Positions 2,690 to 64,000 of a DNA stretch of 64,000 nt are shown here, piece after piece. The stretch comes from Heliocidaris erythrogramma (lineage: Eukaryota; Echinodermata; Echinoidea; Camarodonta; Echinometridae), in NCBI GenBank assembly GCA_025617745.1, contig CM046853.1:33364625-33428624 (forward strand), written 5' to 3'. Numbering within the stretch: position 1 is the first letter of the stretch; every line of letters starts with the position of its first letter. The notes under the pieces were generated by a model that did not search any database, was not told the DNA's origin, and saw only the letters and a list, made by a program, of their open reading frames with translations. The position numbers and the translations under genes were made by a program.

Positions 2690-3531
2690 GCTACTGAATG
2701 GTGCTTATGAGACACCCCTGTAATTATAGTCACGCATGTATTTCAGACGACTAACATTCAACCTACATGCTTAACACATGATTGCAAAGACCTCGAGAAA
2801 TTAACCAAAGTCGATTTCAAAATCCTTGTCCACCACCTTTGGAAAGTCACAATGGCATTATTACAAAATGCCAACATGATTTCTTGAAGACAAAATTGTA
2901 GGGGAATCAAATGGCCCTTGAGCTGGTTTTATTTTCAAAGTCTTAGCAGTTGTGTTCACGGTGCATTGCACTGATGAAGGAATTACAGTAATGACTATTC
3001 AACTCTAGAAGAATTTCGAATTACACTATCATAAAGTCACTACTAGATAGAGCTCGACTTTCTCTATAACTTCAGATAGATTTCGTTGAAAATTCACTTC
3101 TGATTTTCAGGAAAAATCCATTATTACAAACCTTTCTCGTGGCAGCCAATTAATAAATGAAAATTGTGACTGAGAATTACTATTCGATCCACTGAAAATA
3201 GCATTTATAGTATAGTCAAAAAGAAAAAAAAGAAAAAAAGTGGATTAATTTATCTGAAGTAATCCTTAATAGAAAGAGCCAGCTTTCCTCAATGGAATAA
3301 ATATGGACAATTGATATTTTTATTTTCTTGTCATTATTTGCTGATGAAGTTGTTATTGACCTAATTCTAAGAGAAAAATCAGTATATGGATATCAGGAAG
3401 TTAGTTCGGAAAGGATTTGTTTTCTACAAATTTTTAATGAAAATTGATATAACGTAGATTTCATTGATGCAGCTGGATAATTTGCATAATATTAAAGTCA
3501 CCCAATTAAAATATTTTGAATATTAAAGATA

Positions 3532-3917
3532 TAGAGTTCTGGTCATGCAATAACATTGTGAAAGAAACTGTCTCAAAGCATTGGGAAAGGTTGACCATGT
3601 TTACATAAGAAGTGTTTTATACTGTGTTGTTTTGGATTCATCTAAATAGATAAGAAATTGACCCAATCTCACTGAAGAGCATGTGTATACTGCACACAGA
3701 AATGGGTATATGGGACTACACACACAAGTGGCATGAATGTTCTGCCCGAACATTTCAGCTACTTCTAGTCGTATTTCGAATGTAAGAGCATTTGAAGAGC
3801 AATCATTTTCAGGGGATGTTTCTACTATGATGTTCTTCCAAACTGACATAAAAGGAATGAGAAAGCTCACAAATTATTTTTCACCTTTCCCAGAACTCAA
3901 GATTCCCTTTAAATTCC
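3532..3917. repeat. ~370-bp dispersed repeat, copy 1
   Basis: Starts AGAGTTCTGGTCATGC and ends near CCTTTCCCAGAACTCAAG. Shares long blocks (GAAAGAAACTGTCTCAAAGC, GCATTTGAAGAGCAATC) with copies in introns 14 and 15. Flanking sequence of the copies is unrelated, so it is a dispersed element; class unknown, no coding capacity. Confidence 0.8.
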
Positions 3918-9916: not shown

Positions 9917-12900
9917 CTGCAGGGAAAATCAAAGAGATAAATGTTTGTAATCCTCACCATCTCGAAATGATTTCTAATACTAGGAAAAAAGATGATTCTC
10001 AATTGCTCAAAGAATCTGTATAATCCACTCCTTATCAAGGGTGATATTCTAAAAAAAATGACTAACACATTTACTCATTAAATAGAGTGTTGATTTTCAT
10101 ATTGTCCTTTTGGAGCCGGAAGGGCATTAACTATGTGTTAAATATGTGTTAAAGTACCTGCCTAAAACCCTTCTGGTTCCAAACAGACAATATGTCTTGA
10201 TTGGTTAATTTAAAGGGAGTGGCAAGTCGTAATCCATGGGCCTGACCAGTTGGCCTGACTCGGGGAAATGTGGATACAATCAGGTCCAATCGTGCGCTAC
10301 CGAAGGAATGTTATTGCCGAATTCCTCGCGTGATCGTTAACTCGAATCCCTACATACGTAACCGACCAATGAGATTCAAATACTGGAATAAAGAACGCGC
10401 GATCTTGTTTACTCGAATTTGGGTCAATGTGCGAACTTTTATTAGCTGCGCACGATAAATTGAAGTCGCTTTGAACTTTGATCCAGAGAAAGGAGCAGCC
10501 AACTGTAAAACCGCCCATAGATTGCGACTTGTCGCTCCCTTTAATAAAGGCATATCCGGTTTTGATTATATTAATGATCTCAACCTGTATGCAATGGAGA
10601 CCTGAAGTTGTTATCAACCAAAGAGTTTTTTTTCTTCTGAGTCCAAATGAAGATTCTGGAGTCATATGATGCTCAGACTATATTCACTTTGCCTATCTCC
10701 AACCAAAATCTAAATGAGTTCGAATTCATGACAGCCTGTCTGGAGAAAACGTCATATTCTTTTGGGTATTCTACACAGATCATCAAAGCAGCAGGTACAG
10801 ACACTTTTCTGTCTCTCTGGATGGTCTTCATTAATGCCCTCATAACATATATTTACCTTGCCTGAAAAAGTTCTAGAACATTGTTATGATCATAACTAGG
10901 TTCCCTGAATTCCCAACTTAACCTAAAATCCAACTGCATTCCTAACCCTGACCTGATATCTTTGACAAAAAACCAGAAACACTCGGGACATGAAACTTCT
11001 GCGACATTACAAACGAAAGCCATTTTCACAGCAAAAAACTTCTGCGACTTGCAAAAATTTAGTGTTATGTCCATTACGATTTCATGATTTCACGGCATTA
11101 AACTTTGGCGAATATGAACCACTCACGAAATTCACAAACATTAAATAGGCGCGACAGTTTCTGGTTCCATAGTAAAGCCCGGAGCAGTTGTCGCCAGGCC
11201 AAATGCCGGGTCACCTTATTATGATCATTATCATTATCATTACTATTATACATTGTGTGCTACTAACCGTGCATGGAGGTTGAAGCCAAGGCTCTCCATC
11301 AATCTGCATGGGCACTCGTTTCCTGGTCCTGATGGTTACTGTCTGACACTGGGCTAACCTTCGACCCGACGACCTGATACCAGCCTTGACCTGACCTACA
11401 TGGAGTGAGCCCTCTAGGCCCACCACCTCCAACAGCTTGTCTCCTATTGCTACAAAAAGATAAAAACAAAGCAGTGAAATAAACGGTACATCTTTATCAG
11501 ATTAAACTCTATACACTCTGTGTGATACAGTGAAACCTGCTTTAGCGACCACCTGTATAGAAAAGACCACCTTTCTATAAACATCTCATTTTTTCTTTCC
11601 CTAGAAAGTTGTTTCTCATAAAAACCTATACTAAAGTAACCCTTGCATAAAGATCACTTAAATATAAAGAATGCATATTGTGCCCTTCATGAGTGGTCTG
11701 CAGGATTCACTGTAGTGTACAAAGGAATCGTCAAACAATTGTAATTCCAGAAATATTGATAGTCTTTTAAATCAGGAACCTCCCTTCATAGGTCTGCGTA
11801 ACTGCTGAACTTTGGACAAGAAAACTTGATGGACAGACAAGGTCACCGTTCCACAACGGGTAATATATATACAATATATAATTACGTATGCACCTTGATA
11901 ACAGTATAACCAGCAAGGATTACTTTGGCTAGTAAACTGATATAATTCATTCCCATTTAGAAAGGATACCTTGTACGACAAATAACATTTGCTTCATAAA
12001 TTCTACTCAATGTGTACCTTATCCATAACATCCCCAATTACAATTTAATTACATTGCATTTTACATGAAAACCTATTGTACTGAATGAAAGGTGCCTTTC
12101 TCATACGAAGATGAAGCTGACACTAGAGTTCAAGCTTGCCTGAATTTGCTTCGCTGGGTAAAACAAAGAATTAGAGTATCTCATCATATTTTCTATAAAG
12201 TTGCCTTGAACTGTGGCATTGAAAAAGACTTACATTGCCTTGCAAACATGAGGTCGATGTTTGACTGCGTAAGACCCACAGTGGAATGGCTTTCACCGTC
12301 TCGTTCCCTGTTCCTCTGGAGCTTCTTCTCCAGTTTGCGTTGCTTCTTCTTGCTGGGGGTGTCTCCCCAAAGGTTGGAGCCACCGTAGATACTGGGGATG
12401 TTGAGCACAGCAATGCCTTCTAGCGACGGTCCGCTGGCTAGGTCTAGGGATACACCATCACACTGTGTATTTGGAAATAAGCATAAAATCAACAACATTA
12501 ATTTCCTTCTATACTCCAAAAACGCAAGTTATTAAATATGAACTAAAGTCAATCGATTTACGTCATTCAGGAAGCACTCATAATGATTGCACCCCACAAC
12601 TGTCAATTTCAATTGTAAATGTTACTGGTACGCAGCGTTCAGTGCAAAATGGAGCAGAAATTAATCTCCATTTTCATCATATTACCCATATTTGTCATCA
12701 ATAATAAGTAAGGTACTAATAAAATTATTCAAAAACAAAAAATCATTAACCTGTCATGAAATTGTGCAACTGTGTCAAAGATAGGTCAAAGTTACAGGAA
12801 TACAACAATCAAAATAACCTAGTACTATGTCTGCATGAATACCCTCTTCGGCAAAATCATCACTGTCATCTTTAAAGATAGAGTTGAGTTCTGGTCATGA

Positions 12901-15900
12901 GATTGTATTGTGAAAGAAACTGTCTCAAAGCAATTGGGAAAGGTTGATTATATTGCACATGTATGCTGTAAGGTTTTGGAATCACCAAAATGATAAGAAA
13001 TTAACTAAATCCTGCTGAGATTCACATGCACAGCACACAGAAATACACACAAATGTTCGGCCCAAACATCTCAGCTCTTTCTTGTCATATTTTGAATGTG
13101 AGGGCATTTGAAGAGCAATCCTTTTCAGGGGACATATCTACTCAGATAATCTTCCAAACTAACATAATAATAATGAGGAAACTCACAAAATATTTTTTAC
13201 CTTTCCCAGAAAACAAGCTTCCCTTTAAGCCTTCCATACTCATCAAAGTTTGTACCAAAAAGCACATTGTAATTATAAAACAAAAATACTGCGACCCCCA
13301 ACTCACCATGATGTCTATGTCTTCATGTAGGTTCTTGCAGGTGGAGGCAAACGTCTCGGAGGTACCAAACTCAAAGTACCAGAGCTTGTTCTTCATTCGG
13401 CTGTTGAACTTCTCCGGATGCTTCTCCCTCATCGTGTGGAATCTGTGAGCAATCGATGCATCCTGTACAAGGAAAGACCAAGCATGAAAGATATTGATCA
13501 CTAAAATGGTAAGGAATTAACAGAAGACTAGTAAACAGATGAAAACATTGTATATTCAGTGTTTGTAATGTTAACATGATGATGATGATGGCTTCTTTTA
13601 TGGCACCAGTTGACAATAACTGGTCTGCTACATGTACATCTTGAGAACTTAATTGGTACATTATTCCTGCTAAGTATAATATCACATGTCACATGAGATA
13701 GGACTATTCCATATTATATATACATGTATAGTGCATGCTTTAGAGTTGAATATACCATAATATGTGCATCCATACTGATTTAGAATTTCTCAAGTGCATT
13801 ATATTTCAATATAAAGCATGAGAGAAAGTCTAAATCTATGGATTCACCTTTTATGGTATATTTGATGACAATGAGCATGTACTATATGTTACATAGGATG
13901 TGAAACTGCTTGTGGGAGCTCACCAAACTATTTTATTGCAACCTCCATCACACATAAAGTGCAAATTTGTAAATTCATTGTAATGTCACACACCCAGTCC
14001 AAAATAATGTGCAATAAATATGTTGCATTACATGCGCACTGATATAATTTACTTGTGCGCAGCGATACCGTATGTGCTAAGAAGTTATCGATACCGTGGC
14101 CTTATGGGATTTTGTATACAAATAAGCGTGCAAAAAGTGTTGTTATATACAATAGTCATGGCCATATAAGGAATTATGCAATGGCAAGAAGAGTGAATCT
14201 GACCAATCAGAAACTTCTTTTTATACATAACCCATCTTATATGATAGTAAAGTACATATAAACTAACAACTAACTATCTGCTGTTGGCAAAAGGAACTAT
14301 TTTTTAAAACTTTTTATACAAAAAGTGAGATCTCCTCAGGGGGAGTTTATTTTTTTTGTCCTTGTTGGGATTTTTAGTACAAAAATTAATTTATATACAC
14401 ATATTTTCCCCACATGTCCATGATTTTACCTTATCAAGTGTAGAAAAATTATTCTTAATCTACTACTCTGTAAAGCCTCGATATCATTCGGTAAAATGCC
14501 TAAAAAACTGCTGCGGTACAATGAAAATACATCAACATCATGCACTTCAGATTCAGATTCAGAGTCGGATTCAAACTACATTTATTTTATTCTCATAATC
14601 AAAATAAATATAAAAATGAAATGTTCATTCACAATAAAACATGGTGGAAGGAGGAGGTGAGGGCCCCTACATGTTTCTCTGTTTTATATTTGATAACACG
14701 CAGATAAGTGAGTATGCCTCGGGCCCTTTATTATGCACAGCTCCTTTTCTTTTACTCCCACTAGCCATTCATTTACATAAAAATTTTTTTATTGGGGCGC
14801 AGTAGGTAATTCTTTCACTGATTTATGTCCGAACAAGGCTTAAATATAAAGCTGAGTTCTGGTCATGCGATTACATTGTGAAAGAAACTGTCTCAAAGCA
14901 ATAGACCGCTTCTGTAATGTATACAAATTTATGCACATACATGTATATTCTCTGAGCACCTAGTGACGAGCTATTCCATGAACCTGCTTTTCATAAATGA
15001 GCCTCAATGCTTGGAATCCAGTTTGCATACATTATTTGTTGCTATGTCCGGCAAGCCTCCAGCAAGCTTTGTTTGAAATGTATGCATAAAATTTGCATAC
15101 ATTACCGAAGCAGTCTATTGGGAAAGGTTGGTCAAGTCTACATAAGAATTGGTATATTTTGTGAGGTTTCAGAATCATCACAATGATAACAAATTGACCC
15201 AATCTCGCTGTAAAGCACATGCACTGCACACAGAAATGGGTGTATGGGACTGCACACACAAATGGCATGAATGTTCGGCCCAAACATTTCAGCTATTTCT
15301 AGTCATATTTCGAATATGAGGGCATTCAAAGAGCAATCCTTTTCCCGGGGCATTTCTGGTATGATGTGTTTCCAAAGTGACATAAAAAGATTAAGAAAGC
15401 TTACAAATTATTTTTGACCTTTCCAAGAACTCAACCTTCTCTTTAAATCGGACCCTGATGGATCACTTACCACTCCTATTGAGAAGTAGTTGTTGATGAT
15501 GTTGTAAGGTACTGGATCTCCCTGTTCTCCTGTGTCTGTTGTGCTAAATTCTATATGCCATCTATCTAACTCGGTTGCGTCGGACACCTCAATATCCTTC
15601 AGGATCTTTGGTAGACTACCTCCATCGTAACCTGGTCAGCAAAACAGAAATCAGAAACATGCTTTAATAGATCATGATAACTGGAATCAAATGGACACGA
15701 TGCAATTTGGTGGCATAAATATCAAAGGTATTTAAAAAAAATTATCAACTTAATATTTAACATTTTGAAAAGAAAATTCTAAAATTTAACATAGTTCTGT
15801 AGCAAAATGTTTGAAAAAATGGAATGTGTCACAGAAAATTATCATCATTCAGTGGCTTTAAAGGGGAATTTGCTTCTTTTGTGTTGATTTGTTTTCTCAA

Positions 15901-16624: not shown

Positions 16625-19600
16625 TATGCATTGCTCAATGGGCACGTTTAACATACAGCATGATTATCTTCAGAACCTAAAGCAATACGTTATCAGAAGA
16701 GGAAGGAGGTGGATATCAAATACATCTGGAGAATCCATACAAAGTTTTAAAAAAAATATATATATATATGTTCATGATGTCATTTACATATTGGTAAATC
16801 ACATGATATGCCAAACACAGCTACAAAGCGTGTAATAGTAAGAGAAGGTAAAGAGATAGAGATAAGAGACAATTTCCTGCTTACAATCGGTAGAAATAAA
16901 AGAATTATACAAGGGAAATCAGGAAAGATGGAGAAGGAAGGTGACTTGCAGAGATAATGAGAATGAATATAAATAGAAAATTATGAAAGAAAAGTAAAAT
17001 ACATGACCCATTTTATAAACATACATTTTCAAATCCATCAGAGCTGCATGTACCCTTATATCTCTTATTTACGATGAATTTTTGAAACATGTATTGCAAC
17101 ATCATCACTCCATGGACCTGTCTTACGAACCGAGTTGTGATTAAATGCGATCTCAGTTGAAGTGGTGCAAAATTCAGATCAATTACAACTCTTTATTATA
17201 AGACTGGGGCCCTGATTGGAGATTGGAAGGACAGCTGTCTGTTTGTGACCAATCACAGATAAGATGAGGAAAAACTTACCTCCTCCCCAGTTGAGACACC
17301 TAGCTAGATCATTGCCTGTACCTAGGGGAAGGATTGCTACTGATGGTCTGGGATCTATCAACAGTTTATCTGAGAAACAAAGAAAAAGACAAGAAATAAA
17401 GTGATCAATGATGTCAAATGAATACTTCTGTATCAAATCATATTCAACTGGTGAAATCCACCAAATACCAATGAAAATTAGAATTTTATTTGTTTGCTTA
17501 TTAGAGAAACCAATTTCAATACTCATTTCATTATATAAAAAAGGATTTGAAGTCATATGTGTATAAGCTATTGACCATCCAGTGAAACATGACATAACAT
17601 ATTAGACAGATCCAGGATTAGGGTTAAAAACAAAAGGGGGGGGGGGGGGGGACAAAAGTTGCTGTGACAAGTTAAAAAAAGTGTCAGGGGCAAGGGGGGG
17701 GGGGGGGGGAGGTAGGGGTTGGCGCTTTTTGATGTACGTACTTATTAAAGTTACATGCACGCAAGATTGGGTTTAAAAGAGATGAGGGAGGGAGCACAGG
17801 CAGATGTGCTTCTTAAATCTCTGACTATAATAACTCATAGATTTTCAGGAAGGGGATTTCAAGAAAGTGTGACACTGGGAGGGTGGGGCACAGATATTAA
17901 AATTAGAGAGATAGCTTTCAAGCTGCAATATACTTACCTATACAATCTAACACCCATCCTACCGTACCATCACCACCACAACACAGGACTCGGAAGTTTG
18001 GGACATCTTTGAAGAACTTAAGCCTTAATAAATGAAGAAAAAAAGAAAACATTTTATTTTTATTTTATCTTGCCTCCTTCACCACCTTCATCTCCTGCCT
18101 AAGCTAGCCATTTCCAATTACACCTTTCTGCTCCTTGCTCGTTCTCTCCTTTCCCCCACCTCCTTTCCTTAATACTCTTTTCCCTTGCTTTTCCCCAGTA
18201 ATTAATAGGCATTTTTCTCTCATTCATTCTTGTTCTTCCCCTGTACATGTGCATATATTCACATGTGTCCAAGTCTTTTGGCCATTTCCCATCCCATTCC
18301 TTATGCTAAGAAATTTACCCTGGCATATCACGGTCCACATTTGCTTCAAAGCTAGTCATTTCTTATTCTCTCTTACCCTTAATTTGTTTCTATTTATTTA
18401 CATGTATCTTCTCTCTCTCTCTCCCTCCCTTTCCCTAAGCCTATCTTGAGAGCCTACCCTGGCATAGGTCCACCTTTGCTAAGATCATAGACCTGTCTTG
18501 GATTGAGAAGATACTGGAATTTCCTCATGATCCTCTCTCCTTGCCTGCCTCCACTCTTTGGATTCACAAACACTACAAGAGGATGAGAGCCCGGGAGAGG
18601 CGTGACCTATCATCAAGAAAACATACAAGATCTGGGTTAATCACCTTGAGTAAAGGTTTGACCTATATAATCAAGAAAAAACAAACGGATCTGGAGTAAT
18701 CCAAAAAAGGGAAAGGTGTGACCTACAATCAAGAATACATACAATATCTGTATTAATCACAGAATGGAAATGAAAATCTGTCCAATTCACTCTTCTCTCA
18801 CGTGGGTTGACTTGTGTAACACAACAGCCTGCTTTAGTTGACTTTTGTCTTAGATTCAACATTGATACAAATACTCTTTTAACACTTGGGCAGTCTCGGG
18901 ATTTAGTTTGTGGTGCACGAAGGGTTAAAGCTGATTTGGGCAAGGAAAAGGATACACTATCATGATAAGGGACTGGCTTTCAATCAATGAAGGCTTTTAA
19001 AATGTCGTTTACATATTCACTGCCGAAGAGGAAGAGTCTGGACTTAGTCCAGATCAATAGCTACCCACTCGAGCTGCACCTCGAAACATGCTACCTTTCA
19101 CATTTACAGCAGCGAGATCACATCACATCTGCTATATGCCTTTTGAAGTCCGCACCAAGTACGGATCGAGTGGTGCCGATAACGTTCATATCAGCTTTTT
19201 GGGTCTGGACTAAGTCTGGATTTAGTCTGGACTCACTCCTTCTCTAACCCTCCCCTAATAAGAAAAGGGTATAAGTAAATTTCAAGTACCGTATGCAAGA
19301 TTAATTGATGTAGACCTTTAACCCTGTCAAGACCAAAGTCAACAACACTATGTACAAACTGAATAGTATTTTAGTCTTGTGGTAATGAGACGGTTAAGCA
19401 GTACAAGCTACTGCTTCAATGCAAAGGTATTGTTTGCCTCACTCTTTAAAGTATGGCTTCTTCATTAGACCTCATATGAATTATCCAATCTGACTGCGGA
19501 TGCACCGTGACATACGCAACCAAAGAAGTTAGTGGTTCCCCTCCCCCCCCCCCCCCGACATTTTTAAATATAGCTCTGGAAATTTTTTGATGGAATTCGT

Positions 19601-49600: not shown

Positions 49601-52600
49601 TTTATGAGCAGGTGGTCTTTATGGACAGGGTCCTTTTATACACATTTCAATGAGAAACACTTTTTTTTAAAGGGAAACAAAAATTGTGGTCTTTATAGAC
49701 AGGTGGTCTTTCTATACAGGTGGTTGCTAAAACAGGTTTGACTGTATTATTATTCAATGTGTGTGTGAACACACTCCAGTAATACATTGATGTGAATTAT
49801 CTAGTGAACAAAGACAAGGTACATGTACAATATACCTTGAATATAATCTGTGCATGCAAAAAGATAAAACACATCATGCACTGGTAAGATTACATAGTTG
49901 AAAAACAATACACAAGGAAAAAAAAAAAGAAGTGATTCCTCAGAATAAATATTTCAGCTGAATAAGACATCATCATTGAAGTACAACAGTACAATAGTAT
50001 GAAATACATATAATTATATCACAGTTGGGTAAAAAAGTGTATATATGAATGTATGAATGTTATTGCACATAACTAAGTGAAATTTATCAATACTTCACCT
50101 TAACGATGAACTGATATGAGCTCATTTTTTAATTTCATGTTATTTTAAATGAGAGATCCGCAAATTTGATCTTATATCTATGTTTTTTCCCTACTCTATG
50201 TCAAATGTACAGAAACACAGGTTTTCGTTTGATAGGATAGTGCAATCTGTTCAACCCAGTAATGATTATTTCTCATTTTTTGCACTTAGATCAGCCCCAA
50301 CCCCCCTCAAAAAATACCCCCCAAAACCACCAAATGTTTTCTTCTAGATGAATTATTTTTTTAATATAATGATTGAGGTCTTTACTTGTCGAAGGATACC
50401 AATCACAGAATAACATAATTAGCATCTTGTCCGAACACTCGAAAGCCGTCTTCAAAAACTATACAAGACTTTCATAGTGTCAAAATACACAGAGCATAAT
50501 GGGAAAAATAATTTAGTTTTAAGCCCCGAAAGGAATTTAATTCAGAGTGAACCTCCATGCGTGCTAAATACTGCGTGTGTGCATTGACAAAACTACTCGT
50601 ATAGAAGTCATCTTTCTCCTTTCTTTTAGAGTGCAAATTTGGTATCTAAACAAGTAATATTCCTTAGTAAAAGTAATCTATTAGGTTATATTTTGAATAT
50701 AGGATGCCAACGTGGAAGCTTAAACATACAGAGCAAACAAATATCTGGAGCTTGGTCCCTTTTCATTTTTCCATTTCATATGTTACACCTTCATATCTAA
50801 ATGTTTCCTTGACTACCTGAACCTCTAGGGATATACTCACGTTTGTCGTTCGTTTTGACTTCACGTATGTACTAATGCAACAGGCTGGGGCACGCTGTAC
50901 GCATCGTTCATGAACCGTGTACTTGCAGACTGTGATAGCAACAAAAAACACGGTAGTACACACATAAATATGAAATGATTTCCTTTCATAATGGATTATT
51001 TCCTTGAGAGGTGTTCATGCAGTTTTTCTTTGTTTAATTGTTTAATTCCTTCTAATGATGCATGATTATAATTTACACATAAAGGCCTACCAGCTAAGGA
51101 TCAAGCTTAGGCGCATACATGTAACTCCCCCCCCCCCCCCCCCCCTCTTACACCCCCATTTATCAGCCTCCAACTGTACTATTATCAAAAAAGTGAATCA
51201 CATTTCAAATTGTAGGAAATATTTGTCTGTCAGGAGGTTACATTTCGGGTAAGAGCAAGGAAAAAAACACCAAAAACAAACCTCTGAAAAATTCCCCCAA
51301 TTTCTTTCCCCTCCAAAGGCACAGGATTCCACCCCACAGACATAATGATACCCCATAACCACCCCCCCCCTGTAAATGAATGATATGCCCTGATGGTATA
51401 ATAGCTACATATATCATTAATTTTGCAGACATATCCATATCAGGGGATGCTCAAGGCACATAAAATCTACTATTGTTACTCTGGCTTTAGCCTAGCTGCC
51501 CTAAGGGGCTGAAAGCATTTAAGGAATAACTTTCTACCACGTACCAATCTCCCTGGGTGGAGAATGGCAAATGCAGATTAATGTCTCACCAAAGGACAAG
51601 AGTGCCGTGGCTGGGACTTGAACTGTGAACAATGCGATCCAACAGTCCAGTGATGTATCCACTAGACCACAACACCTCGACATAAGGTCGTAAGTACTTA
51701 CATGTACACGATAGACCTTAGTGGTATAAGGTCGTATGTACTTACATGTACACGATAGACCTTAGTGGTATAAGGTCGTATGTACTTACATGTACACAAT
51801 AGACCTTAGTGGTATGAAGTCATAAGTACTTGCATGTCCAAGAGAGACCTTAGTGGTATGAAGTCGTAAGTACTTACATGTACACGATAGACCTTGTTTT
51901 CCGAATCCTACCAGGAGGTTGAGGCAAAGATTACAATAGGCTGGTTTATTGTAGTGTTTTAACCTCCATACATGACTGCCATCGTCTTTCACATTCTGTA
52001 CAAATGAAGAAAGAAAAATGTCAAAGATGATATAAGATGTTTAAGTAGAAGATCCAATATCAAGCAATGTCAGTAAATGACAAATTGTCTAAGAAAACAT
52101 CCTGTTAAAGATACTGTGAAATTAGCTCGGGAAAGTGCTTCGAAAGCGATTAGTATGCAATGTCGATAGTGTAGTGTAGGCTAACAGGCCCTAAACTAAA
52201 TCTTGTGCAAATGTTATCCATCGATCTGCTCTGACAGCTTGAGATTGTTGCAGGACTATTCTTGTTTTGAAATCCTCTCACAGTTGTTATGTCCATACAT
52301 ATAGGCTCTTGCTTTCCAAAACCAAAATTTACACAATTTTACACAATATACCAAACAACTTTTTTTTGTTACACAATATACCCAAATATAGAGACACTCA
52401 CTGATTATTCAACTTCAGAGTTACATGTACAAGATCAACATTTTCTATTTTGCTGGAATCATCACTAGGGATCTATTACCTGGTTAAATGAGGATATAAA
52501 CATATTTTTCCAGAAATCCTTCAAGAGTGCCTAACTTTAAAGTGATTTGGTAACTTAGTAGAGGCTTGAAAAAATCTGAGCTACCTGGCCTTACATGCTA

Positions 52601-55600
52601 TCAGTGTATGTAACATGGTGTATAAATGAAACCCGGGGGGGGGGGGGGGGGGGGGGGGGGCAAGCACTTCAAAATCATCATATCCTTCACAAAAGTAAAC
52701 ATATACAAGTGACCGGAAATGCCAGACTCATTTTCCCCCATAGACTCAGTGTTAGACTAAAGCGTATTTTATTAAATCAAGCCTCCACAAAGTTACCACA
52801 TCCCTTTAAGTGTAATCTTGGGTTCTGTTAATAACAGAATTTAAATTCTCACTGAATGAAATGTAACTTACACTGAATATTTACAACTACAAAATATATA
52901 TATATATATATATATATACCTGTGTCAAACGATTTTCGTAGAAAACACATAATACCAAAGTATTTGCAAATGAAGACAATGATATTAAACAAGAAGTTCA
53001 GGCTCTATTATATAACATACAGGGATTGCCTGCATGTGAACACTAGCTAGTACTTACTGATTCAAGGCCAAGAAGAACTAAGAGAGGAATGGTTGTCATG
53101 CCGCCACGGATCCATTCTTCTAACGATACCGTTCCGTCTGAATCAAAGTCAATCTCTATCATCATGTCTTGTAAGATCTGTTTGGAGAGAGAGAGAGAGA
53201 GGGGGGGAGGTGGGGAGAGGGAGATAGAGAGAGAGGGAAAGAGAGGGGGAAACGGAGAGTCACAGAGAGAGAAATACATTATAATATTAAAAAACAATAC
53301 GAAACCATCAGATAAAATTTGATTAAATTTCATTAAATAGTGTGATGCCATTGGATATGATTTGACTTTGGTGCAACACATATTTTCGAGTATTCTCGGG
53401 CTTATAGTCTTCAACGGGTTAATAAATGAAAAAATCATGAGGGGAAAATGAAGATAGGGACCCTATATGAATGTGGGAGATCTGGGCAGAAAAGGAAGGA
53501 ATTACTTCAACTGGAACCGCCTAATTTTCACAAGTTTACACATATATTCTTGAAAGAGGTCTATTATAATCTTTTACCAATACACAAGGCCAAACAACTA
53601 ACTTTTTTCCCATAGGGGTTCTGGATTGACATTTTTAGGGTATGTATGCGTGAGCCCTATATTAAAATTTTGATATTTTCGGGGGTCTGTCCTTAAACTT
53701 TAAGCACCCATGTTTCCTGGGCACCTGGTAGTGTTGATCCCTGCAATACAAACAAGATCTAAACGCATATTTGTGATAGATTTAAGCACTTCTGGGTAAC
53801 TTGGCCTTCATTTAAGAGTCCTTGTTGTCCACGAGTCAGACTCAACAGGTCCTAGAGCACATGACCTAGCTGCCCTTACCCCCCCCCCCCCACCCCAACT
53901 ACAAACTCTCTGTGGATTGTACTTACTGGTCTTAATTCAGTGACATCCCATCCTAGATACTCAGCTACATGCATCATCTGGTTTACTATACAATCCAGCT
54001 CCTGCAAACATTAAACACAAAATGGAGAGGCGGACATTAATTGATATATCGTCTGTTGAGAGCCAGAAGGGTGTTAACTCATATACATTAACACAGAGTT
54101 AACGCCCTTCTTGCTCTCAATTTTATCTAATACGCAATTTCTATGGGCAATAAGTATATTCATTACTTTTTATCTACAAGATAGTGCATTAAGCCAAATG
54201 CTAGACTAAAACAAAGAGAAAAAGAGAGAAATACATATATTTGTGATGAGAGAAAGAAAGAATATTATAATAACTAGTTATAATCACATGTAAGTATCTA
54301 AAAGAAAACAACAGCAACAACAATAACTAAGATGCATTTCAACTTACACTGCTGTCAAGGATACCATTGTCATCTGTGTCATAAAGCCGGAACATAACTG
54401 TGTATAGAAAAATAGTAAAGGGAGAAAATAAGGTGAGGGAGAAAATAAGGTGAGGGGAAAATATTGATTCATGGGGACAAATCTTCATATTGCTTCTAGG
54501 ATCAAATACTAAGGTCACACAGAAAATATGATTTTAAAAAATACAGTACATATTTGTATAAAACTTGGTCATATGACAGCACTTTTGGTAAACAGATTAA
54601 AATATGAATTTAAAAAAAGGAAATATCTCATTACCATAATATGATTATATTAATTCAGACTTTTCACTCATATCATGATCATACATTCCTGTCAATATAT
54701 GCAGAGGAGAATGCATTATATGAGCTTGTTCATTAGAAGGAAACTGTAAACAGAATGTATATTACTCTCCATGATGTGGGTCTTTTAAGAAAATTACAGG
54801 ACTGGGCGCTCAAATTTAACCATTCATGTCAACATAATTCACATGAGAATGCATTACATATGATTGTTTATTTCTTAGACAAGTCTGTACATGTCCAGCC
54901 CTGGAAAAAAATTATTAAACCAAGCTTCTGTAATAACGGTACTATAATATGCATACAAAATTATAAACTGATTTGTCTTTGTATTTCATTGAATGAATAA
55001 CAAATTCTAGCAATTGTACCTTGCTTTTATGATATTTTATTTCCTTGTTACCACAAAAATAACACTATCAGTAACCATTCTTGGTCTAATAATATTTTCC
55101 AGGGCTGTATTATGTTAAAAGATCACTCTCACATTCAATTCAATGTATTGGAACCTTATCATTAAGGGTCATAGGGGAAATCCTTCACATTACACAATAG
55201 TCAGGTTTACACAAAGGGAGCTAAACTTTAAGTTTTGCTTGTAGTTTCGAAACTTGTAGTTAACGCCAAAACCATGAGCAGCAAGGGGTCCTCCTCGTAG
55301 TTACAGACCGTGTGGACGGAATAAACTTTAAGTTTAGCAGTCTCATTGCCAACGATGACCTCTCTGCTCATGTTAAACGACTAATGCTGGACTTGTAGTC
55401 TCAGAATGAGCATCGTTGTTTTGGGCCCATGTGAACCCTCATCGTTGTTAGTGAGCCTTTGTTTTGTTAACTTAAAGATTCGCTAACTTTGAAGTTTCGA
55501 AACTAGAAGTCCCGTATGAACGTAGCTAATATCGTCAACACAGCACCATGGATATTTTTTTTTATATTCCATAATACCCATCCATCCAGACAGAGAATTA

Positions 55601-58600
55601 TTCTGACATTTGGGATGCATATGCCTTTGAAAGATTTCTTTTTCACCGAGAATATTTTGCTTATCCGTGCACAATTTCCAAGATCATGCCCAACTGGTCT
55701 TTTACGGCACGTTCAAAGTCATAAAGAATAATCTTCATCTTCACTCCCCCACACATTTATCTTATGCAGACTAGACTAAACATGTTCAGCATAACATGAG
55801 TGGGTGGATGCATAGCCACCAAATAAACATACCGACGATCAACATGACCCACAAAAAGCCCTTTTTTGTCATTCCCACTAATTCCCCTTCACTTTGGTAA
55901 GGCAGCCATACAAAGAAGATTTCAATTCGTAGATGGAATACAACACTGTGAGCTCTAATGTGTAAATGCTACTGACAAAAAAAGGTGTTGTAAATGTACA
56001 TATACAGCCCTGGAAAAAATTATTAGACCAAGCTTCTGTAATAAGGTTACTATAATATGCATACAAAATTATGAAAATGATTTGTCTTTGTACTTCATTG
56101 AATAAATACCAAATTCCAGCAATTATACCTTGCTTTTAAGATATTTTATTTCCTTGTTACCACAAAAATAACACTATCAGTAACCATTCTTGGTCTAATA
56201 ATTTTTTCCTTGGCTGTAGATGTATGTCCACATTTCCTTTTCAATAAAAATTTAGGATTTTTTTTGGTTAGTTTATGAGAGCAGACATCCTCCTCACTTT
56301 TTACTGCAGTCCAACCACCAGGGAAGCGTTTAATCAGGCATTTTGTCAGTGATTTTTACTGACAACTTTACTCTCAGCCAATCAGATGCAAGGATTTCAG
56401 TAGTTTATAATAGTTGTCGGTAAAAATCACTGACAAAATGCTTGATGAAACGCTCCCCAGTAATCATCAAAACATTGAAATCTGCACCTGCCTCTATCTC
56501 TGAAAGTTTCTTTTATTATGAGCAATGTTGAACATAACTTAACGTCCCAAGGTAGGTTTGAAGATAATTTTATCTTTAAAAACCTCTTTTCTTACATTCA
56601 CAGCCTTTAGCATTTCACTTCAGCAGTGATCCCTCCTAAAGTATCAACTCCCCCCCCCCCCCCCCCCACCCCCTCCCTTTCAGTTAATAGCACAATCAAT
56701 TTTGAAGCGGTAGTATAGCCATCTCATCCATAATATACCCTTCTTATTTCTACTTTCATTTTCTCTTGTTTTCTACCATAGGACCCACATGGCACCATGA
56801 CAAGCAAGGAGCAAGAAAAAAAGAGAAAATGGGTGAGATATGATGACCTAATCTGAAGCAGATGCCCTGGGTTTTGATAGCTAAATTCCAGGCAGGTCAC
56901 GGCTGATGAGGTCTCATACCAACCACGCATCCCAACAAGGAGAAAATAAAGATGGAGTGAGCGGTAGAAAGACAGAAAGAGCAATTATTTTCAGAGGTAA
57001 CGACCAATGATGCCTGAGTAATAGTGCTGAGATGATGGTTGCATTAAGAGCTAATAGGATCATACAGTAAAGATATGAAAATGGGATTCAAGATAATAGA
57101 CATGGCTTCATCAAAGCCATTAACCATAAAGACAAAGATATTTAGGATGTGAAATTAATGATGTGTGATAAAGGGATTTTTTTGATTTTTCATACAGTAG
57201 AAAATGCTTTTTAAAGGTATATATTTAAATTACGTTTATTATGCATAAACAGAGCCTAAAGGAGTGGAAAAGCAAGGGGGTTTAATTCAGTGATATACAC
57301 AAAAATTTGTGGACACTGGAATTTATTTTATTTGTTTTACATTTATTTGCTCTGGATTTTCATCTATCACATAATACAGACAGTAATGCAGCATCATATA
57401 CACTAAATATACTATGCACTACACCATAGCAACAAAGAGTAGATCTGAAATGTCTTAAGGACAATGAACAGAAACAGAAACAAGTATTTCTTAGTTCGTA
57501 AAGCAAATATTGAGCATCTGAAGCCTTGTAGGCCTTTGCAAGCAATATGCGTGTGCCACAAGGATCTATCATTGGACCTATACTATTTTTGTTAAAATAT
57601 CTTTGTACATACAACTTGAAAAAATATATACTTTTTTATTTTCTCAAATACCTAAGGAAAATGAATAAGGTAGCTAACATGGAAGGTAAATGTCCTGTGC
57701 CATATGACTCTGCACAATTTAAAAAATGCTTTAGTTTTAAATGGTTAAATAAAACCATCAGATTTTTCAGAAATATTAAACGGCCACAAAAATTAATATA
57801 TTATGATTCTGCCCTAGTTCCATTTTTAAATTGTTCATGTATATGACAATATGTAAAGATTGTTCCACGATATGCCCTTTTATAATTCATTAACCTACAT
57901 GTATTAATAATTTCAAGAAAGAAGACCAGCTTTTCTTAGTCTAAATATACTAGATATACAAAATTGGGGCATTAATTCAATCCATTGATGACAGTGAAAT
58001 TGTTAAAGAAGGGAGCACAATATGAGACCCTTTCCACACCCTTTCACTCTGTATATTAAGTCAATACATTTCACAAGTGGTTAAAAACAAGACAGACCTG
58101 AACTGCATGCACAGACTTTAGTTTCATGGCCAATGCAGATACTCTATACACTGCCTTTAATTCTCTTGGCGTCCAAGCTAGGCTAAATCAAATGAATATG
58201 TGGTTCCTCCAAAACAATTGCGTAGGATGGCAGACTAGATGCGTGGTGGATATATTAGGGTGATGGATGTCGAAAATAGATTGATGAGAAGGTTTACTAT
58301 TGATTATTATGTATCTCTCTCTTTTTGTCTATACCCTGGCGTCTACTTTTGGGATCTATTTGAGGGCCTGCTATTATCTTTTAAAAGCTCTACTGATAAT
58401 TCAAATTTCCCAAGATCAGGAGCAAGTAGGGAGATTTTGATGGATGGTACATGAGATACCAAATTTCAAACTTAGTTTGAAGTCCATTTCAATTTGATAA
58501 ACTACAACTTGAGTAGAGAAATAAAAATAATGTTACTGAAAAGTATTTTCACAAACATTATAAATGAAACAAAAAACAAAAAACAGGTGCTGCAAATCTT

Positions 58601-61721: not shown

Positions 61722-61942
61722 CATTAAAAAAAGTGGTTTGGAGGGACTATGTAATTTATCGATCTCAAACTGTATGGAGGGTAGCGGCTAACAGAAATCC
61801 TGATAATAAACCCTGTACTGAATGCAACAATGTGACATGGGATCCTTCTTTCCAATGTTATAATCTGCATTCTGCATATTTGGATCATTCTATTTAAATG
61901 TAGTTCAACCGGACACAACCAGATACAACCATATACAAGAAG

Positions 61943-62358
61943 AGAATTAAGCATATTCATCAAATGTACAGTAAAATCACACTCTCCCTGTATACCATAT
62001 TACAAACTCTGTCACTATTCTAACCCTCAACGGTTATAATTAGTTCATGCCATACGGAGGGTTTGTCTGCTTTTTTCAAAATTTTGTACACTCCATCTCT
62101 TCTGCATCGGCCCCTGGAAGCCAAGAGATGACGTTTAAAGGGTTAAAGGACAAGGAGAGAATTAAGTATATTCATCAAATGTACAGTAAAATCACATTCT
62201 CTCTGTATACCATATTACAAGCTCCGTCACTACTCTAAACCTCAATGGTTATAATTAGTTCACGGCATATACCGAGGGTGTGTCTACTTTTTTTCAATCT
62301 CCATCTCTTCTGCATCGGCCCCTAGCTGTAAGCCAAGAGCTGACGTTTAAAGGGTTAA
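61943..62358. repeat. Tandem duplication, period 215 bp
   Basis: GAATTAAGCATATTCATCAA... at 61943 is repeated from 62158, both ending TGACGTTTAAAGGGTTAAA. Copies differ by scattered substitutions and small indels. Confidence 0.85.
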
Positions 62359-64000
62359 AAGCATAGAAAATGGAAGGCATGTCACTACTCAAAGTCTATA
62401 TTCTGGTTTTTCCTCCTCTCCAAAGTCTTGTTCACACATGCAAGACACTGGCCTCAGAAATATAAAAAGACATTTTATGTGTAAATCTGATTTATTTGAT
62501 TTTAAAATTACCTCTTTCTTTCTTTCTTCAAATGGTATAATTATAACTTCTATTAATATGCCTTCCTTTGGTTGATCACTATAATGTCATTTATAATACA
62601 GAAAACTTTCATCGGTTGGGGGTAATCATACAACTGTAGTTTAATGTCAGTTATGTTATGGATCCCCCCCCCCCCCCCCCTTATCTCAAGCCACAGGCTT
62701 GTTGGGGTGTTAGATCCTCCATAATTCCTGATTCATATTTTTACTTCTTTGATATTTTTATGAAAATAAATTAATTGAAATTGGCCCCCTAAAAATTCTT
62801 CTTGAGCTTTTGCTTTGGACTTCTTTTTATCTTCCTGATGGTTCCACCTAGGCCCTTAAGGTGAAAGAAAATCCGATGTATGCAACAAACTATACTCAAC
62901 TTCTCTGTTATATGATAGAGCAATGTAAGAGCACTATGCTTATTATTTTTATGTCATTACATTTTCTGCAGCAGGCCGCCTTTTGGTTTATGTATGAACG
63001 GGGCTCCACGTTTCCCCAATCTTCCATCAAGGCTCTCAGCCAAAGCTGATGCCATCAAGAGGAGGACCAATATTACACACTCGTGGACGACAGTCAAATT
63101 CTGTGATCTTAAATTTGGGAGGCAAGGAGACAGGCAAGCACTGCGTGGGCTGCTGTTGCTAGCTTGGTCACTGTGCCATGTCTCTATAGTCCGTGCAGTG
63201 ATTGACTAAATGTCCCCCTTCCAAATGCCTGCTTGTCATCAATGTCCTGACGCCAGTGCATACAAGGAGATAATGGACTTTAAAGGTAAAAGCACAGTGA
63301 TCAAATCTATTGTAGGGAGGATGAATCCCCTAAGGGTTAATGGATAGGTACAGTGTTGTCTCAAGTTCTAAATAGAGAAGATGAAAGATTACATCCTATA
63401 TCGTCTCTGGAACACACAACTTTTATGGCTTTAGAAAGATGCTTCATTTTCCGAAAGAATGCTGATAATAATCACATATCATAAACTACATGTATTTATA
63501 CATTATAGATTGTATACAGTATGTGCTCAAAGCCAATTTCTAGTCCTCACATTGAATTTTCATTCCTTGAAAACATGTTTGAAAATAATTGCGAGTTGCT
63601 ACCTTGCGATTATGTGATAATTATATGTTGAGTTAAGATTACGCTAGCCAAATATACACTGAATAGTGAATGCTTGCTGAAAACAGCACACCATAAACCA
63701 TCACCAACATGTACAGGTGGGACAGTGTTGCATGTAGACGATATTGTATGGACTGGACCTAGCTAGAGAAAACATTTCTTGGAATGCTTTGTTTATTTTG
63801 CTTATGACTCAGCAATTAAATAATTTTATTTCAGAATTATTTGACAGATATATGGTTATGTGGTGATAAATTTGACGGGTTATTTTAGTTTTTATCATTA
63901 CCTTTTAGCATTAGGTTTTTTATCTTAAACTGAACATGAAACCAATCCAGAAGGAAAATGGAAAATGCTATGACTCACTCATGGAGGGGGGGGGGGGGTA

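Follow-up and report, generated by a model that had tools for sequence, protein, structure and literature searches.

A tandem array with a 44-bp period at the 3' end of an exon encoding the first half of a C1 domain multiplies the exon's 5' splice site within a kinase gene. In our best explanation, to which we assign a probability of roughly 0.78, the array is a boundary-spanning 'mirage' minisatellite in which the first donor is functional and the downstream donors are seldom-used spares. Several tandem duplications of a 44-bp boundary segment (18 nt of exon, 26 nt of intron), all towards the intron and probably by unequal exchange or slippage, would have built the array, and the most upstream, original donor would still be the functional one. 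We propose that the spare donors would rarely be chosen, the spliceosome settling on the first adequate site past the exon; the closest downstream spare may additionally be handicapped as a weak GC site, and its rare use, or that of the other spares, would yield a premature-stop mRNA that is probably degraded. That the first donor prevails is probably why the array is tolerated.

The array was found by TRF as the single 44-bp-period array at 51682-51895 of the window, by which we mean the whole 64,000-nucleotide stretch analysed (4.9 copies, 90% matches, 0% indels, score 344). When up to 3 mismatches were allowed, the 18-mer CATGTAAGTACTTACGAC had five matches in the window, 5/5 of them inside the array, against a shuffle mean of 0.03. 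The array is not a chance occurrence, and both measurements confirmed the original prediction of a 44-bp array multiplying the C1-exon donor at this location. Minus-strand units start at 51895, 51851, 51807, 51763 and 51719, the repeat being kept for 38 nt in the fifth. Each unit joins 18 nt like the end of the C1-domain coding exon to up to 26 nt like the start of the intron; the repeats cover the exon-intron boundary, 18 nt on the exon side and 26 nt on the intron side, and many units keep the splice signal, as GT in four of the five and as GC in the other.

All of these features lie on the minus strand. The C1-domain exon (51878-51995, previously numbered exon 6) is 118 nt long with a phase 1 end, and its acceptor reads TTTGTACAG/AATGTG, the slash marking the junction. 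Unit 1 (51852-51895) consists of the exon's last 18 nt and 26 intron nt and carries the putative real donor, CAT/GTAAGTAC, at 51878/51877. Unit 2 (51808-51851), the most divergent, has the GC donor CAT/GCAAGTAC at 51834. Intact donors are present at 51790 in unit 3 (51764-51807), at 51746 in unit 4 (51720-51763) and at 51702 in the 38-nt unit 5 (51682-51719); all five donors stand where they had been predicted, including the GC at 51834. The intron that follows the C1-domain exon is 948 nt long, and the next exon (50841-50929, previously exon 7; 89 nt, acceptor CTATCACAG/TCTGCAAG) encodes the second half of the C1 domain.

The host gene had been described simply as a kinase; Pfam matches correct this to a diacylglycerol (lipid) kinase. 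Hand-joined exon pieces matched DAG_kinase_N (1.7e-08), EF-hand_1 (2.8e-08), C1_1 (4.2e-16), DAGK_cat (1e-25) and DAGK_acc (6.6e-37), the C1_1 match coming from the C1-domain exon joined to the next exon. DAG_kinase_N, EF hands, C1, catalytic and accessory domains thus follow each other in the order of a type I diacylglycerol kinase on one strand, with minus-strand coordinates descending from ~61 kb to ~12 kb; a second C1 domain (40452, 37051) was recognised by motif alone. In a PDB sequence search the joined C1 domain had its nearest matches among the C1 domains of protein kinase C (28 distinct sequences, E <=0.001) and aligned to that of protein kinase C beta with no gap across the exon join. 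Judged from these predicted domains, the minus-strand host gene encodes a lipid kinase of the type I diacylglycerol kinase class.

The reading frame singles out the first donor. The C1 domain is open only with the donor at 51878, when exon 51995-51878 is joined to 50929-50841, and one of the five donors therefore gives the expected protein; the predicted real junction at 51878/51877 holds on this ground, and the real donor accordingly sits in the first, exon-proximal repeat. Use of 51834, 51790, 51746 or 51702 would add 44, 88, 132 or 176 nt, and all four spare donors lead to a stop: counted from the start of the exon, the frame stays open for 76, 75, 69 and 69 codons, respectively. With 51834 and 51790 the stop is met in the next exon, and with 51746 and 51702 it is the TAA of unit 3's donor; the 132 nt added by 51746 are a multiple of three, yet they include that TAA, which would also end the frame upon intron retention. 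The original prediction held that additions of 44 or 88 nt shift the frame and leave it open to the TAA of the 51790 donor. The added lengths and frame effects stood, but this TAA is removed when 51790 itself is used, and a TGA in the next exon is met first. The accompanying statement, that the gene must use the first donor strictly or make truncated products, is a fair wording of the choice, with stops after 4/4 spare donors. Messages that carry a premature stop with later exons downstream of it are expected to be degraded by nonsense-mediated decay. Further exons of the kinase gene do lie downstream of the array-bearing intron, and mis-spliced premature-stop mRNAs would therefore be expected to be degraded.

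Pairing with U1 does not distinguish the first donor from most of its copies. The U1 duplex energy over 11 nt was -6.9 kcal/mol for units 1, 3, 4 and 5 and -2.8 kcal/mol for the GC site of unit 2; three of the four spare donors equal the real donor in U1 pairing and the fourth is weaker. Among 14 other provisional donors in the gene, 12 pair more strongly than the real donor (-7.0 to -12.4) and two more weakly (-6.4 and -5.4); of all 3606 minus-strand GT sites in the window, 100 pair with U1 at least as well. Because units 1, 3, 4 and 5 pair equally and most other donors of the gene are stronger, U1 pairing cannot be what makes the first donor the one chosen. The weakness of the real donor for its gene counts against our best explanation, as it could let the equally strong spare donors 88, 132 and 176 nt downstream compete. 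If spare-donor use were regulated, the resulting premature-stop mRNAs would make the array a brake on the kinase level, tuned by unit number. Equal U1 pairing at three spare donors and stops after all four are what such a brake would need, but the precedent arrays are reported without disturbance of splicing, F7 uses only its first donor in the normal condition, and the nearest spare donor here is the weak GC site; we consider a brake unlikely. The downstream copies might instead aid the real donor, extra U1 snRNP just downstream strengthening exon recognition. A real donor outmatched by 12 of 14 others could profit from such help, and PMC5933811 describes human PAH exon 11, whose splicing is promoted by U1 bound downstream of the natural donor. 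However, the PAH variants are at +17 and +20 and the nearest strong copy here is 88 nt off, and for the kinase gene itself such help would be a proposal by analogy with PAH, to which we give very little credence.

The units also differ in predicted RNA structure. Cores of 36 nt from units 1-5 folded at -6.2, -5.7, -13.7, -11.8 and -9.1 kcal/mol, and 13.8%, 22.2%, 0.2%, 0.4% and 2.4% of 500 shuffles, respectively, folded equally well. A hairpin with AAGGTC/GACCTT arms is present in the cores of units 3-5 and in a weaker version in units 1 and 2; random substitutions in unit 1 gave folding energies as low as those of units 5, 4 and 3 in 121, 10 and 3 of 5000 trials each. Taken whole, the array is more stably folded than 200 shuffled versions (z -3.36), as is expected because the repeats carry a palindromic donor region, GTAAGTACTTAC. 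The 9-nt site was modelled by local folding to be open with probability 0.018, 0.021, 0.0017, 0.0007 and 0.008 in units 1-5, and the opening cost of the real donor was below that of spare donors 3-5 in four of five contexts. The fifth context, the array alone, gave 6.4 for the real donor against 5.9, 6.1 and 6.8 for spare donors 3-5, and the mean unpaired probability was higher at 51790 (0.52-0.63) than at the real donor (0.10-0.55) in each of the five contexts. Masking of the spare donors by RNA structure was rejected as the main reading, and is not established, because the array-alone costs and the unpaired probability of 51790 go the other way. The stronger modelled hairpins of units 3-5 relative to units 1 and 2 may give a post hoc hint of masking, from a test picked after the fold was seen and on units that share their changes by descent. 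It is quite improbable, on this modelling, that selection silences the spare donors in two ways, by a GC nearest the real donor and by the hairpin (AAGGTC ... GACCTT) enclosing the donors of units 3-5, the real donor being left as the GT with the weakest local hairpin; if it did, kinase output would be tuned by unit number and hairpin strength.

The copies had been called nearly identical, and their expansion recent or homogenised. This agrees with the single differences over the first 38 nt between units 3 and 4 and between units 4 and 5, but not with unit 2, which differs from the other four at 5-9 of 38 positions (five from unit 1, 7-9 from units 3-5). The remaining pairs differ at two (1/5 and 3/5), three (1/4) or four (1/3) positions; units 1, 4 and 5 have the same 18 exon-derived nt, and each pair among the five units shows 1 to 9 differences over 38 nt. 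The pattern fits local exchange among units 3-5 that may have left unit 2 diverging. The same differences bear on whether the assembly wrongly multiplied or collapsed copies. Such errors have a precedent in one amphioxus mirage that its describers, in a passage of PMC3087553, called aberrantly assembled in a draft genome; simple repeated-read error, however, would not yield pairs that differ at 1 to 9 of 38 nt, and we consider an artefact very unlikely. The array's length might differ between individuals, or its assembly might be faulty. Taken as a whole, the interpretation first offered for this array is partly supported; it mentions neither amphioxus mirages nor F7 intron 7, precedents whose arrays are reported to leave splicing normal.

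Sequence adjoining the array at about 51590-51681 (approximate ends, minus strand) is a possible tRNA-derived SINE head, with A-box- and B-box-like motifs picked out by eye against what we take to be their consensuses. In this stretch ARAGORN found no tRNA and Rfam no tRNA family at E up to 10; a 20-nt piece of it occurred just once in the window when up to 3 mismatches were allowed, and a 27-mer had 0 matches in prokaryote genome contigs. A microRNA candidate was rejected (Rfam mir-466, 20.4 bits vs a gathering score of 85, E 0.27). At its start (50919-50927), the exon that follows the array-bearing intron holds TGCAAGTAC, which resembles the donor T/GTAAGTAC; the donor consensus and the codons for Cys-Lys-Tyr can explain the likeness, and it could be a trace of intron origin. 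Other repeats in the window include two tandem copies ~212 bp apart at 61935-62359 (84% identity over 219 columns), where no exon was recognised, a direct repeat at 54886-55109 and 55995-56218 (225 columns, 92% identity, 1.1 kb apart), and a dispersed repeat at 3523-3914, 12872-13228 and 15117-15448 (alignments of 287-394 columns, 74-83% identity), with two copies between recognised kinase exons and one past the last recognised exon.

A second boundary-spanning array, this one at a 3' splice site, was found in the same gene at 18593-18770 (approximate ends, minus strand). Its three diverged units of 56-60 nt each have a 3' splice site, with AG/GTCA acceptors at 18723/18722, 18663/18662 and 18607/18606, spaced 60 and 56 nt apart. 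The first catalytic-domain exon presumably uses the last of these, 18607/18606; splicing to one of the two upstream would lengthen the message by 56 or 116 nt, and stops occur in all three frames. By BLAST, 44 of 52 positions agree between the outer copy and the real one, and the middle copy is weaker (16 of 31 ungapped around the junction; gapped alignment by MAFFT). This array was absent from the TRF output and from an ungapped repeat search at >=18 nt. When provisional splice boundaries were scanned for copies within 1.5 kb that matched at 22 or more of 30 nt, the same two arrays were found among 19 boundaries and then among 31. Boundary arrays were not significantly enriched in the kinase gene (2/31, P 0.10-0.16 vs the window background, the lower value being obtained with the two arrays roughly left out of that background). 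The presence of a 5' and a 3' boundary array in one gene, the 3' one being more diverged, suggests a process that both recurs and decays at a single locus.

No earlier report of the kinase array was found in the literature searched. Among the matches listed, the sole one with the term diacylglycerol kinase (PMC2796648) had 0 occurrences of 'tandem repeats' in the text available, and neither 'minisatellite' nor 'mirage' turned up in the passages searched from the amphioxus huntingtin paper (PMC2206037). Mirages are described, in passages of PMC3087553, as amphioxus tandem repeats over exon-intron boundaries, with units of 10-72 bp in Adh3 and ~150-160 bp in the globins BflGb6 and BflGb9; Adh3 data and globin RT-PCR there suggest regular splicing, and the BflGb6 mirage has 6 and 3 units on two haplotypes. 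Excerpts of PMC3902484 add the lancelet mirages of PGBD5 and TnC. The kinase array resembles these in that short boundary-spanning repeats multiply splice signals; by the same accounts, amphioxus mirages can affect 5' and 3' boundaries alike, and the kinase gene has one of each. The host gene, a diacylglycerol kinase, sets it apart from the amphioxus cases. We regard it as a sound further example of a known mirage-type structure, in a gene for which we found no earlier report; if the host is not a lancelet, the phenomenon would be extended to another lineage. Duplicated boundaries are also the raw material in a model of intron gain via duplicated proto-splice sites, outlined in PMC3087553, but here there is no new intron, the array lying inside an existing one. 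Natural arrays whose donors are near-identical offer a test of how the spliceosome chooses among equal sites, strength being constant while position and local structure vary. A parallel in donor use comes from human F7 intron 7, with 37-bp repeats of which, according to passages of PMC6627357, the most upstream donor alone is used in the normal condition. Both arrays have highly similar donor repeats with the real donor in the first; they differ in gene and in unit length (37 bp in F7 vs 44 bp here), and the likeness concerns the arrangement of repeats and donors. First-donor-only use, reported for F7 in those passages, would be shared by the kinase array under our best explanation.
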